Source of the DNA: Scatophagus argus
Taxonomy: Eukaryota > Chordata > Actinopteri > Scatophagidae
Length of the DNA stretch: 64,000 bases
Reading direction: 5' to 3'
Assembly (NCBI RefSeq): GCF_020382885.2
Contig: NC_058506.1
Span: 22,592,318-22,656,317 of the forward strand
Positions 28,986-62,649 of this stretch are shown here, piece after piece (the first letter of the stretch is position 1; every line of letters starts with the position of its first letter). The notes beneath the pieces are model-generated. The model saw nothing but the letters and a program-made list of their open reading frames with translations. It was not told the DNA's origin and did not search any database. A program made the translations under genes and the position numbers.

Positions 28986-30450
28986 AATTCAATTTAATTA
29001 ATTTTTATTTAAAGTGCCAATTCATAACAGAGTTATCTCAAGACACTTTGCAGGTGTGTAAACAACACATTAAAAATAAAAAAAGAAGAGAATCAGAGAA
29101 AAACAGGTCCCAGGGCAAAACCCCACACTGAGTCAGCATTTGGCGGCAGTGGAGAGGAAAAACTTCCTTTTAACAGGCAGAAACCTCCAGCAGAACCAGA
29201 CTCAGTGTAGACGGCCTTCTACTGTGACCGTCTGGGAGGGAGAGGGGGGAGAGGAGAGACCTGGAGATGGAGAGAGACAGGAGAGGGGGGGAGAGGAGAG
29301 ACAGGGAGATGGAGAGAGACAGGAGAGGGGGAGAGGACAGACAGGGAGGATAGAGAGAACAGTGCAGAGCAGGAGCAGCAGGATCCAGGCAGGACCATGG
29401 AGAGGGTTCTGGATCCAACAGCGGTACCAGGCCTCAGGAGGGTGGGGTAGGAGATTCTGGATCCAGCAACATGCTCCAGAAGTGCTGCTGAACAACAGCT
29501 CCGGGGGAGAGGGCGAATTAGTGCTGTACAACTGATGGGACATGATGAGTGAGTCCCCTTGCTCAGAAAGCTCGGTGTGTAATGATCTCCCCCAGCTATC
29601 TAAACCTATAGCAGCATAACTAGGGGTTGGTCCAGGCAGAACCTGGACAGTCTTAAGTATAGGCTTTGTCAAAAAGGGGGATTCTATCTCTCTCTCTCTC
29701 TCTCAACCCAACCGGTCAAGGCAGATGGCCGCCCATCTTGAGCCGGGGTCTGCCGAGGTTTCTGCCCTCTAAAAGGCAGTTTTTCCTCTCCACTGTTGCC
29801 AAGTGCTTGCTCAAGGGGGAATGTTGGGCTCTCTATATTACAATTTACCTGCTCTAATTGGAAAGTGTCATGAGATAACTTTTGTTTTGAATTGATGCTA
29901 TATAAATAAACTGAATTGAAATTGAATTGAAAATTGAATTTTAAGTCTACTCTTAAACATAGAGAGGGTGTGTGCCGCCCTGACTGAGGCTGGTAATTGG
30001 TTCCACAGAAGAGGAGCTTGATAACTGAAGGCCCTGGCTCCATGTCTACATTTGGAGGTTCATGGTATTACCAGTAAGTCTGAATCTAAGGAACACTGAT
30101 ATGGTTCAATAAGATCAGTGATATATGATGGTGCCAGACCATGCACGGCTTTGTAGGTTATGAGGAGGATTTTAATTTCTACTCTAAATTTTACTGGAAG
30201 CCAATGTAGAGAGGCCAGCACAGGTGAAATGTGGTCACACCTCTTAGTCTTAGTCAGAACAGGAGCTGCAGAGTTCTGAATTAGCTGCAGAGTCCCGAGG
30301 GATTTTTTACTGCACCCTGACAAAAGAGGGTTACAGTAATCCAGCCTGAAGGTAACAAAAGCATGGATGAGCTTCTCAGCAGCATCTAAGGGAAGGACAT
30401 GCCTGATTTTTGCGATGTTACGAAGGTGGAAGTACGCCATCCTCGAGACT
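28986..30450 (-). mobile_element. LINE ORF2 C-terminus with long 3' region
   Basis: The minus-strand frame 30440-30060 encodes FVTFRLDYCNPLLSGCSKKS, then LQLIQNSAAPVLTKTKRCDH and LASLHWLPVKFRVEIKILL. This is the typical C-terminus of a Jockey-superfamily LINE ORF2. A 3' UTR-like stretch with purine-rich GGAGAG repeats (29230-29350) and a TTTATTTAAAGTGCC end follows toward 28986. A second 3' UTR piece of a related element is inserted in opposite orientation at 29685-29935. Confidence 0.65.
29685..29935 (+). mobile_element. LINE 3' UTR fragment, inverted relative to its host element
   Basis: Starts in a CTCTCT tract, then AACCCAACCGGTCAAGGCAG and AAGGCAGTTTTTCCTC, ending TATAAATAAACTGAATTGAAA. 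It is the reverse complement of 32945-33215. Confidence 0.7.
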
Positions 30451-33215: not shown

Positions 33216-33446
33216 GAGACAGACAAAGAGAGAGGGGAAGAGGGGGGGTGCAGAGATGCATAGCAGCAGTAATAATACCAGAAGTATTGGAACTGTAGAT
33301 GATGATGACAATGAAATATACAGAAGGTACAGTACTATGGTGACAATACAGGCAACAATACAGAGATCGAATGGCCCATAGCAACAGGCCACCTTCCCCG
33401 TATTTCGGTCGATTCCCACACAGGATACTTTGCATTCCTTCCACCA
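33216..33446. other. no gene seen
   Basis: GA-rich start, then sequence with no recognisable protein, leading directly into the OR pseudogene. Confidence 0.4.
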
Positions 33447-33868
33447 CCAGGGACAATCACAAACAGTTTTCTGTAGTCTGTGTACTGAGCGAAGCGATAC
33501 AGAATAATGACAATAAATCCACTGATCTGCATGATCAGATGCACAACCAGGCGAGTGCTGCAGGTCTTCAAGTCTTCCTTGTTCAGACTTGTTTTGCTGC
33601 TCAGATAGACTACTGTTATCTTACCATATGTGAGATCCATGGTGCTTATACAGATGGCTTTTAAAATTACAGTGAAAGTGAGACCATAGACGTTATTGAT
33701 AAATGCACTCTCACAGGAGAGCTTAAACAGGGAAACACTGTCACAGTATGGATTTGTGATCACAGTCCTGTATCAGCTGAGCCATATGGTCAGACTGAGC
33801 AGAATCCCCACCAAAACAAAGGCCACTCCCCAAGCAGCAACTGTCAGCTTAATCACCACTTTGGTGGT
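33447..33868 (-). pseudogene. olfactory receptor pseudogene, 3' portion (TM4 end to TM7)
   Basis: The minus strand still encodes OR pieces close to the intact copies: ITNPYCDSVSLFKLSCES, FINNVYGLTFTVILKA, DLKTCSTRLVVHLIMQISG and IILYRFAQYTDYRK. The NTIIYG part of TM7 and the C-terminus are gone. At least one frame change lies near the TM4/loop-2 boundary, and small deletions occur (for example in the intracellular loop KTSLNKEDLK). At 33868 the gene is cut by a Penelope-like insertion and resumes at 38384. It is more diverged from the eight intact genes than they are from each other, so it is an older copy. Confidence 0.95.
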
Positions 33869-53212: not shown

Positions 53213-55029
53213 TCATTTTTTGTGACAGAGTTTTATGCTAAAGTTCTTGGTGATGCTGGTGCGTAGCTCTTTATTGACCAGACCGTAGATAATGGGGTTG
53301 ATGGCTGTTGGAATGATGATAAACATGATGCTGAACAATTTCTTTATATTTTGGGAGACTGAGGGGAACCTGTGATACAAGATTATGACCAGTGAAGACA
53401 CTTCGTACACAACATACACAACAAGGTGACATGCACACGTCCTGAAAGCCTTGCTGTGGATGATGCTGCCACCTCTGCCCTGTTTAACTGAAGCATGCAG
53501 GATTCTAAAGTAGGACAAAGCAATGATCAGGAAGACGCTCGTACTCAAACACCAGGTCATGGACAGGCCTAGAAAAACATACAAAATAAAAAACACTGAA
53601 TCATCCTTTCAGTTCAATATCTTGTGAACCTCCCTCCTCATTCTACCATCTTTTCACTTCGCTTTGCCTCCAACAGGATTATCTGAACGATTCAAATTAA
53701 AAAGGCTAAAAGGCATTTTATTGAATAAATCTGACTGTCTTGTGTCTGCAGATACAACATACACGTGTATTCTCAGAATACAAACTGAATAAGTTCTTGA
53801 TAAAACGCTGTAGGTAGTACTGCGAAGTAGTTGTCGATCATTCACTTGTAAGAAAAGGAAAAGCTGCAGTAAAAACGATGTTCCTTTATAGAACTAAATG
53901 AATGTAATGACCAGTTCACCTCCACAACATACTTACCATAGATATCATTGATGGGGGTGGGACTGCAGGCCAGGTTCAGGATGACACGGTTGCTGCAGTA
54001 GACGTGTTTGATGGTGTTGCCACACAGAGGGACATTGATGTGAAACGCGAAGAGCACAACAATACACAGTAGAGCAGCGAACCAGGCCAGAGCGCAGCAG
54101 GAGTGCAGCCGGGCGGAGGTCATGATGGTGGGATACTTGAGCGGTTTGCACACAGCAATGTACCTGCAGAGGGAAGTAATAACATCAAAACCATCCTGAG
54201 TTTTCCCGTTAAAGATTCGTTGTCACGGGATGTCAGCATGTGGAGCTGTTTGTATTTGCTTCTGAGCTTTTCTTATTTTGACTGTGCGCTCATACAAACA
54301 CATCAGTCCCATTACACGTTGAGCTAGCACGACAACAAACAAGGTGGATGGTGCTACATGATAACACTTATGACTGCGACACAAATTGTGTATAAAGAAG
54401 AGCACTTCTCTTGAAAAATTTTACGTTGATTTACAAACTGACAAATTAAAGGCCTGGGAAATAAAGGATGACCGGACTTTTCAGCATGGTTTTACTTTAA
54501 ACTTTAAAAGACATTCGATCCAGCTGATCGATGCCAGTAAACTGTTGAACGGTTGAAACAGTAACAGTCACTTTCTACCACTGCTGCATAACAGTGGAAG
54601 AGTAGCTTGACTGTGGGACGAATCGTCTTGATGTGCTGGTGTGTTTCGATACCTGTCATAGGCCATCACACCCAGAACAGTCTGCACTGCGGCGCCGTAC
54701 GTGTGCACAGAGAAGGCCTGGGCGACGGCCGTGACATAGGCGATCTTCTTCTGCCCCGTCAGGAAGTGCATCATGAGGCGAGGCAGCACCGCTGTGGCCC
54801 CCAGCAGATCACAGGCTATCAGGTTACAAACCATTACAAACATGGGTCTGTGAAGGTTCTTGTCTGCGATAATGACGGCCGCCACTACGCCATTCCCCAG
54901 CAGCGTGACCATGTAGTCAAACAGAGCCAGGATGAACAGCAAAGAGCCGTAGCCTGGTGGTACGTAGAAGCCCTCGAGCTCAAACACTACAGGCTGTTTG
55001 AGAGGACTCACCATTGTTATGTTCTCCAT
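53213..55029 (-). CDS. olfactory receptor with coding introns (3 exons)
   Basis: Odorant receptor of 319 residues, clearly diverged from the tandem array. Exon 1 is 55029-54653, exon 2 54163-53937, exon 3 53568-53213, in total 960 bases including the stop. Exon 1 has NITMV near the start (N-glycosylation), TM1, HRPMFVMVCNLIACD in TM2 and TM3 to MAYDR. Intron 1 (donor CAG|GTATCG, acceptor CTGCAG) splits the Arg codon of the DRY motif. Exon 2 begins YIAVCKPLKYPTIMTS and ends PINDIYG. Intron 2 (G|GTAAGT, TTTCTAG) splits the following Gly codon. Exon 3 has KAFRTCACHLVVY and NPIIYGLVNKELR. An acceptor TTTCACAG lies 12 bases before the ATG, implying a leader intron. ORs normally have one coding exon. 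Confidence 0.92.
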
Positions 55030-55041
55030 CCAAAGTTCTGT

Positions 55042-55914
55042 GAAAGACAAATAAATCAGTTTTCTCTGAAAGGCGCCTTTTCAGGCGTCAGGATAAGAGG
55101 TTTAGAATTCTAACCACATTTCAATATGTTTGAGTCAGAGCTGACTTTTGTCTTTCTTAAATCTTAAATGAAATAGATCACACAGTGGTACCTGCAGCAG
55201 GACTGGCAAAGGTCTCACAGCAATTCAGTTTACCATCAAATACATAAAAAGGAGAGAAGTCAGCGTATGTCTAATGACCACAACACTGCGAAGGTTCCTA
55301 AAGCGTCCTGTTCCGTCTCATCAGAGCGTCGATGCTCTGACTTGTCCTTGAGAGAGTGTGTTTGCCTTTAATAACCTGCCTTTGTGCTCTGCGCCATCTG
55401 TCACACTCATTCCTACCCACAGTCAGCATTACCATCATCATCATCATCTTCAGCTACCTCAGTAATGCAGCTCATGTCCCAGATTGGCACTGAGATGTTT
55501 GGCTGTGATTTTAACGTAATAACGTCCTGAGAATTTGACTTTATTTCCACCACAGAGAGTTTGATTTTAAACATATAACATATAACATGATAACCGCACA
55601 GAATGATTTAATCTCTGTTACTCAGGATGTTCAGTCTTACCACCTTAGTGTGCGTGTGTGTGTGTGTGTGGATGCGTATTCCTGTAGTTATGGGGACAAA
55701 AATCTGTTTACCATTAAAGAGTAACTAAGCCTCAGAATCTTGACTGGACTTCCACTATCCATGAAATTTGCAAATTGCTTGTAAAACATGAAAGTATCAA
55801 CTTGTGTCATGGACAAAAGCTGCACAATCTGATGGTGTTTTTACAGTCATGAAAGCAACAGGTGACACAGTGGTGGAGACAGGTTGCCTCCAAAACCTCA
55901 CCTGCCTTCAGATC
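55042..55914. other. upstream of the intron-bearing OR, no gene seen
   Basis: Probable promoter and leader region of the OR ending at 53213. Contains ATC and GTGT short repeats (55435-55452, 55650-55672). No leader exon could be fixed. Confidence 0.4.
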
Positions 55915-60411: not shown

Positions 60412-62649
60412 TCAGATGGCTTTTCCCAGGATGAGGATGCTCATGAAGAAGACCATGATGAAGAAGAGCCACATGAAGAAGCGATCCATGACCTTGGCGA
60501 CCTTCCTCCACTCCCCGATGCGCAGCTGGGCGGCTCGCTGCTCCTGGTACGAGCTGGCAATGTAGTCAATGTTCCTGCGCAGTCCCTGGTGCTGACACAC
60601 ACACTGCGTTTTCACCAGGATCTCCGTCATGTTCTGTCTGGCTCTGCCTCCCTCTTCACCTCCTACGCCTTTCTTCTCCTCAGCATGCTCTTCTCCTCCT
60701 CCACAGGCTCTGTTTGACTCCACTTTATGTCCTCCAGCAGCTCCTTCCTCCTCGGAGTGGTTGATGGTCACGAACAGATCCTCCGTCCAGTCCGAATCGC
60801 GGCCCAGCTTCAGAGACTCCCCATCCTCCTCCGCTCTCCCTCCCCACGCCTGTCCATTCACATCCCAGTTTGCTCCTCTGGTGTTGCTGCCATTGGCTGA
60901 CGGGGCTTCAGACTCCTCCTGTGACAGAGGTTGTTTCGTGGACGAGGTCCCGCCAAGGCAGTTCTCACCAACCTCATAGACAAAGCAGATGCGGGCGAGG
61001 TAGTTGAGGATGAAGCGCTCGGCCCACGGTGGGACGGGACGAGCCTCGGGACCGCAGTGGTGGATGTTCATGATGAAGATGGTGAGCGCTGTAGATGCAG
61101 TCACCATCGTCATGGTAGCAATGTAGTACTTTCCTGTTTAAAAAGGAATTCAAATGTTATTTGACCTTCAGAATGCACGTATGAGAGGTTGTATGTTTCA
61201 GTTCACAAGCTGTGATACTGACATTGTTGTCAGGTGTGTATGATGCTGTCAGAGACGCAGCCACCTTCAGTCAGCTTCTCACTCAAAAAGTCTGGGAAAC
61301 TGACAGTCCTGGAATTAAATCCTTTTCCATGTGAACTGAGCCATCAATGAGAGGAGCTGACTGGCTGCGTCGTTGCTAGTGTCAAAGCTTCTCGTGAATC
61401 GGACAGCTCTGAAGGAGAACCCAGGCTCATAATGATGATCTCCATGTTTCAGCCTTCAAATAATGTGACCATATTTGATCCCTTTGATTAAACGGAACTA
61501 CTTTGTTTTCTATATCAGTGTTTTCTGAACAGATGTACAACCTGAACAAGAGTTAAACATCAGGTATTTGTCTTCTCACCTATGAGTGGGACGCTCTCGG
61601 AGGGCGGCATGCTCTCCGCCACCAGCAACTGAAACACGGTGAGGGCCAGCAGCACTGTGACACCCAGAGAGACTTTTTCACCTGAGTCAGCCGGCAGGTA
61701 GAATCCCAGAGGAGCCAGAAAGGAGATCATCATGCAGGGGATGAGGAGGTTGAAGATGTAGAAGGAGGCACGTCTCTTTAGAAGCAGGGTGAACGTGATG
61801 TCTGGGTACGGATCTGAACAGCATCCATACAAGATGACGTTCTTCTTGGCTGGCATGCCCAGAACCTGTCAGACAGAGAAGTTCATTTTGTCGAAGGGCT
61901 CAGTTCAGCAGTGGGGCCTTTTTGTGGACACAAGGTAACCACTCACCTCCCACTCCACATTGGGGACAAAGTCAGAAAGGTCAGCGCTGTCCAAGGCATT
62001 GAACAAGTCCATCTGGTTGCCGTTGTGAGTCCAGGAGCCGAAGGTCAGATGGCACTCCTGCTCATCAAAGGGGAAGAAGGCCACGTCCACGGAGCAGGAG
62101 CTTTTGGTGATGGCTGGCTGGTCCCACATGACCTGACCGTCGTTACGAACAACCACGTTGGTCTCCATTGAGCTGGAGAACTCATCGTCTGCGCTGTGGG
62201 GAAGGTGGAGGAAGTCGTGTGAAGGCAGGGAGAGGAAAGAGGAAGAGGAGGGAGATTTCCTGCCCAGCCTACCTGTTATACAGGACGATATCTGGTCTCC
62301 ACACGTAGCTGCTCGGTATGCGGATGGTGTCGAGGCCATCATAGTCCTCCTTCTTCCAGGTGAGGTAGGCGTCCATCCACACCTGCCGGACCCACAGGTA
62401 GGTGGTCAGGATCTGGTTGCGCTCATCCTGGTGAGAGGGCACAAACACATCAGCGCAGACATGAACACACACAGCATGAACATGAGGATGTGTTTATGGT
62501 TACCATGTCGATGATCTGGGAGAGGGTGATCTGCAGTGTGACGTTGATGATGTGGTCAGTGTCCTCCACAGGTCGCAAAGCGTTGGTGTAGTTGGAGAAC
62601 AAGTCATTCATCAGCTTCTGAGCATAGCGACCGTGAGCCGCCAAGTAAA
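60412..62649 (-). CDS. chrna10: nicotinic acetylcholine receptor subunit, alpha10-type (exons 2 onward)
   Basis: Ligand-gated cation channel subunit of the alpha9/alpha10 family. Exons are 62649-62504, 62427-62273, 62193-61947, 61865-61580 and 61133-60412, all with GT-AG borders and consistent phases. Visible in order are [10 protein letters not shown] and [16 protein letters not shown], the Cys-loop [15 protein letters not shown], the alpha-type vicinal cysteines in [12 protein letters not shown]1 ([16 protein letters not shown]), TM2 ([19 protein letters not shown]), TM3 ([18 protein letters not shown]), a long acidic, Gly-rich cytoplasmic loop and TM4 ([18 protein letters not shown]). The fused 155-base second exon fits alpha9/10 structure. 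[13 protein letters not shown] and [13 protein letters not shown] favour alpha10 over alpha9. The first exon (signal peptide) was not found and may lie beyond the window. Confidence 0.9.

Follow-up and report, generated by a model that had tools for sequence, protein, structure and literature searches.

The closest described counterparts of the gene reported here are olfactory receptor (OR) genes of cichlid fishes. In the survey by Azzouzi et al. (2014), the 507 complete cichlid ORs included 46 whose coding region is divided into two to four exons (PMC4122780). Table 7 of that survey gives all six family I genes three coding exons, in agreement with its main text, and Table 8 omits family I. 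In five of these six genes GAC.AG precedes the first intron, which is in phase 2; NyeORs.I079 deviates at both introns. In BurORs.I076 and TilORs.I129 this intron lies at codon 125, and the second intron follows ATC.TAT at codon 201. According to the same text and tables, the cichlid introns were called from sequence, without transcripts, families were delimited by at least 40% amino-acid identity to their members, and stickleback, medaka and Tetraodon genes were also assigned to subfamily I1 (Table 3 of the survey; PMC4122780).

Published accounts of other fishes, as far as the texts cited describe them, include 28 OR genes with 2-5 coding exons in Sillago sihama (PMC10093537) and transcript-supported introns in four ORs of Coilia nasus (PMC5387026), and two- or three-exon OR and TAAR genes have been described as rare (PMC10869828). 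On the contrary side, an older review presents OR coding regions as free of introns (PMC3308321), and Alioto and Ngai (2005) reported that the vast majority of ORs are uninterrupted (PMC1325023). A three-exon OR structure is rare but already in print. Since split fish ORs have been published, the gene described below is a further case and not a novelty. An earlier note on this DNA had held that introns occur in only a minority of fish ORs, which agrees with the proportion in the cichlid survey (PMC4122780).

We analysed a stretch of 64,000 nucleotides, hereafter the window (contig C14, positions 22592318-22656317, in a genome of 570,666,677 bases and 48 contigs). What it contains, together with the published parallels, points to a teleost. 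The features of the three-exon OR that it contains are collected in Table 1. The joined exons amount, as the earlier note had claimed, to 320 codons (960 nt including the stop), and the 319 residues are encoded without any stop or frameshift. The exon junctions given in that note, 54653/54163 and 53937/53568, are exact to the base. Its placement of the introns was likewise correct: intron 1 lies inside the Arg codon of the DRY motif (MAYDRY), and intron 2 at the Tyr-Gly step before TM5, inside the Gly codon that follows Tyr 201. An unspliced reading of the gene was rejected because of in-frame stops in both introns.

Table 1. Features of the three-exon OR gene in window coordinates (a slash marks a splice border)
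Feature	Position (strand)	Description	Basis
Coding exon 1	54653..55029 (-)	377 nt; from ATG to second base of the DRY Arg codon	translation, splice reading, splice-pair scan
Intron 1	54164..54652 (-)	489 nt; phase 2; CAG/GTATCG ... CTGCAG/G; in-frame stops if retained	
Coding exon 2	53937..54163 (-)	227 nt; from remainder of DRY to Tyr-Gly step ahead of TM5	splice-pair scan
Intron 2	53569..53936 (-)	368 nt; phase 1; ATG/GTAAGT ... TTCTAG/G	splice-pair scan
Coding exon 3	53213..53568 (-)	356 nt including TGA	translation, splice-pair scan
Candidate 3' splice site of a 5'-UTR intron (TTTATTTGTCTTTCACAG)	55038..55055 (-)	ATG 8 bases downstream	read from sequence

Splice borders were compared with an HMM trained on 45 of the genome's intronless ORs, GT-AG pairs being scored for one intron while the other was held fixed. 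For intron 1, 25 donors in 54800-54450 combined with 18 acceptors in 54450-54050 gave 450 pairs. The frame stayed open in 19 of these, and the proposed pair ranked first with 281.0 bits, versus 265.5 for the next. For intron 2, 700 pairs were formed from 25 donors in 54050-53750 and 28 acceptors in 53750-53450. The frame was kept in 70 of them, and the proposed pair again came first (281.0 versus 276.5). The GT-AG borders named in the earlier note thus outscored every other pair tried. The letters beyond GT and AG were not used in choosing the pairs, yet they look canonical, reading CAG/GTATCG...CTCTGCAG/G for intron 1 (the acceptor side is also given as CTTCCCTCTGCAG/G) and ATG/GTAAGT...TTTTTCTAG/G for intron 2. 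These results confirmed that the split of this OR into three coding exons is real and beyond chance.

The resulting structure is that of cichlid family I, whose genes, as tabulated, likewise have three coding exons, interrupted in the DRY codon and again ahead of TM5 (regions IN 2 and OUT2 or OUT2-TM5; PMC4122780). Both codon numbers (125 and 201) and both last codons are shared with two of the six tabulated genes, BurORs.I076 and TilORs.I129, whereas the other four deviate from the three-exon OR in a codon number or a last codon. Unlike the second intron of the three-exon OR, which is in phase 1 by the GT-AG rule, that of the two matching genes is listed in phase 0 in Table 7 of the survey. 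Since a G stands on either side of intron 2, the spliced product is the same under either phase; a genuine one-base offset between the three-exon OR and the cichlid genes may also exist. A further difference concerns the EC1 and EC2 cysteines, which that survey reports in every complete cichlid OR, whereas the three-exon OR has Ala at position 101. The three-exon OR is most likely the counterpart of cichlid family I, an assignment made from intron positions. If the host is not a cichlid, the matching positions suggest that both introns predate its split from cichlids.

The origin of the introns was addressed with a tree of 50 rows, comprising the three-exon OR, 45 intronless ORs of the genome (left after 71 were thinned at 85% identity), three further ORs (human or consensus), and a melanocortin-4-type receptor (L030) as outgroup. 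The three-exon OR and the outgroup both form long branches. The three-exon OR fell within the ORs, where its sister clade consists of five intronless ORs, among them the cluster present in the window (support 99/93). This sister position favours gain and, by our own count on the best tree, one gain of each intron is needed, versus three losses of each under retention. We consider it highly probable that the gene is a protein-coding teleost OR with three coding exons, most likely of the family I type, whose spliceosomal introns were gained in one OR lineage.

A DRY intron is by itself no proof of recent gain, since many non-OR GPCRs share one from fishes through mammals, as described in PMC3151243. 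The intron in DRY could accordingly be a relic, inherited from an ancient class A GPCR intron that survived here and was lost from the other vertebrate ORs, in which case the lineage of the three-exon OR would be the outgroup to the intronless OR radiation. A tree with such a basal placement (the 48 other ORs together versus the three-exon OR with the outgroup) was not rejected by the AU test (p 0.118), which is weak here because the outgroup is one long branch, and in the amphioxus survey, as cited, 15 of 50 full-length ORs were not predicted to be intronless (PMC2764704). We nevertheless regard a relic as improbable: in the best tree the gene groups with intronless ORs, the count of losses is three times that of gains, and the same DRY site is described as gaining introns anew in fish melanocortin receptors (PMC3151243).

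These melanocortin receptors offer a parallel for intron 1 that supports gain. In the account given in PMC3151243, fish MC2R and MC5R gained a DRY intron at a MAG/R proto-splice site, and novel introns are also noted in P2Y receptors and CHRM3. As in the three-exon OR, the MC2R and MC5R intron lies in DRY in phase 2 ('phase c') with GT-AG borders; unlike it, these genes are not olfactory receptors, and the passages describing them mention no counterpart of the Tyr-Gly intron. The three-exon OR reads CAG/G at intron 1; of the 71 intronless ORs compared, 54 also have CAG directly ahead of this point, so the site is common. The site of intron 2, ATG/G, does not fit the MAG/R rule. Under the gain reading, one OR lineage would have parted from its intronless relatives and then acquired two ordinary spliceosomal introns, the first landing in the CAG/R proto-splice site offered by DRY codons. 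The three-exon OR extends to olfactory receptors the set of fish GPCRs that carry an intron at this DRY site, which may serve as a natural test of intron-gain locations.

We compared both introns by blastn with 314,063 bases (some overlapping) and found no source for them in these sequences. Besides self-matches, only one hit was returned, a 45-base match of intron 1 at 29066-29110 (76%, E 0.036), and an origin as repeats was rejected within the sequences compared. An origin by local duplication was also rejected, as comparison of the introns with the gene gave, besides self, only matches of 8-18 bases. Thirteen stretches in viral contigs fit a sequence pattern, of which tblastn confirmed none as relatives, and a literature search that combined 'DRY motif' with 'phase 2 intron' and 'rhodopsin' found no paper.

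DRY codons were also counted by alignment column in the 71 intronless ORs. The Arg codon was AGA in 51/71, AGG in 4/71 and CGN in 16/71, compared with 286 AGA and 176 AGG at Arg positions elsewhere in these genes (Fisher p 9e-7, for genes that are related and not independent). Because AGG followed by TAY creates the donor-like AGGTAY, the scarcity of AGG in DRY can be read as selection against cryptic splicing, which is one reading of this codon bias.

The spliced product matched the Pfam profile 7tm_4 (olfactory receptor) with 157 bits (cut-off 27) over profile positions 5-278 of 280. Among the best 60 of 184 matches in a PDB search, the 13 at the top, with E between 5.6e-43 and 2.8e-33, were olfactory receptors or consensus ORs, and non-OR GPCRs began at 7e-9. 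For comparison within the genome we used 71 distinct full-length OR frames from sampled loci, a subset of the genome's ORs, retained at E <= 1e-20 with at least 240 residues aligned to the three-exon OR; shorter frames were left out. Thinned to 46, this set defined 26 near-invariant positions (LHxP, DRY, the ECL2 cysteines, NPxxY and others), 24 of which are kept in the three-exon OR. When each of the 46 intronless ORs was tested against the rest, 0 to 4 mismatches were found at 22 to 29 positions.

The two exceptions in the three-exon OR are I130V and C101A. Residue 101 (window 54727-54729) is Cys in 71/71 of the other ORs compared and Ala here, so that 'perfect OR motifs', as the earlier note put it, is too strong. 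We take position 101 to be the site of the TM3 cysteine that in GPCRs usually forms a disulfide with extracellular loop 2; cysteines 173, 182 and 192 are retained. The TM3 cysteine is a near-universal trait of ORs, not a defining one. Since the profile and 24 of the 26 positions fit, we regard the gene as an atypical member of the OR family. The missing TM3 cysteine is the single feature that we cannot explain, and it marks the product as a candidate whose extracellular fold may differ from that of other ORs.

About as improbable as a relic intron is a recently dead OR with two insertions that lie by chance at splice-like borders: the lost cysteine and the lack of any similarly split gene among 137 family matches in the genome would suit it, whereas the intact run of 319 codons, a mismatch count of two, inside the range of the 46 intronless ORs, the canonical letters of the top-scoring borders and the matching intron positions of cichlid ORs already in print (as tabulated in PMC4122780) all speak against it. 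The interpretation of the locus in the earlier note, an OR whose coding region is split by two introns, is supported. From its sequence we infer that the gene is transcribed and that splicing yields an intact 319-residue receptor, with a putative role in odorant detection in the olfactory epithelium.

The 137 family matches came from a search of the genome in which 138 of 286 candidates were scored and the table was read by eye, so further split ORs may have been missed. Unbroken matches covering about 250 or more profile positions numbered 132, one of them with three internal stops. The remaining five were the three exons of the three-exon OR, C14:23264977 (L029) and C18:12829302 (L030). At the first of these two loci (C14:23264000-23267000) an OR is spread over two overlapping frames, and it is probably a frameshifted pseudogene; the second, the outgroup of our tree, is closest to the melanocortin-4 receptor. 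Methods that assume a single coding exon see the three-exon OR as three fragments, as this search did, and OR repertoires counted in that way can therefore miss it. The gene is a good case for annotation.

Eight intronless OR copies and a fragment (33335-33772) occupy positions 1-46141 (-) of the window, the first copy being cut at the window edge. The copies belong to the OR family and share the strand of the three-exon OR; unlike it, each copy is a single open frame of 332-340 codons from stop to stop, without an intron. Their identity to the three-exon OR is 35.5-37.1% over 316-324 aligned residues. Among themselves the eight copies are 95.9-98.0% identical in nucleotides (28 pairs) and represent a recent tandem expansion. 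Frames between the copies resemble, by eye, LINE reverse transcriptase.

On the other side of the three-exon OR, exons of a nicotinic acetylcholine receptor subunit were recognized at window 60412-62405 (-). The closest PDB match of one piece (61560-61868) is alpha-7, although it presumably resembles alpha-9/10. In humans CHRNA10 is located close to the class I ORs, so synteny may be worth checking.
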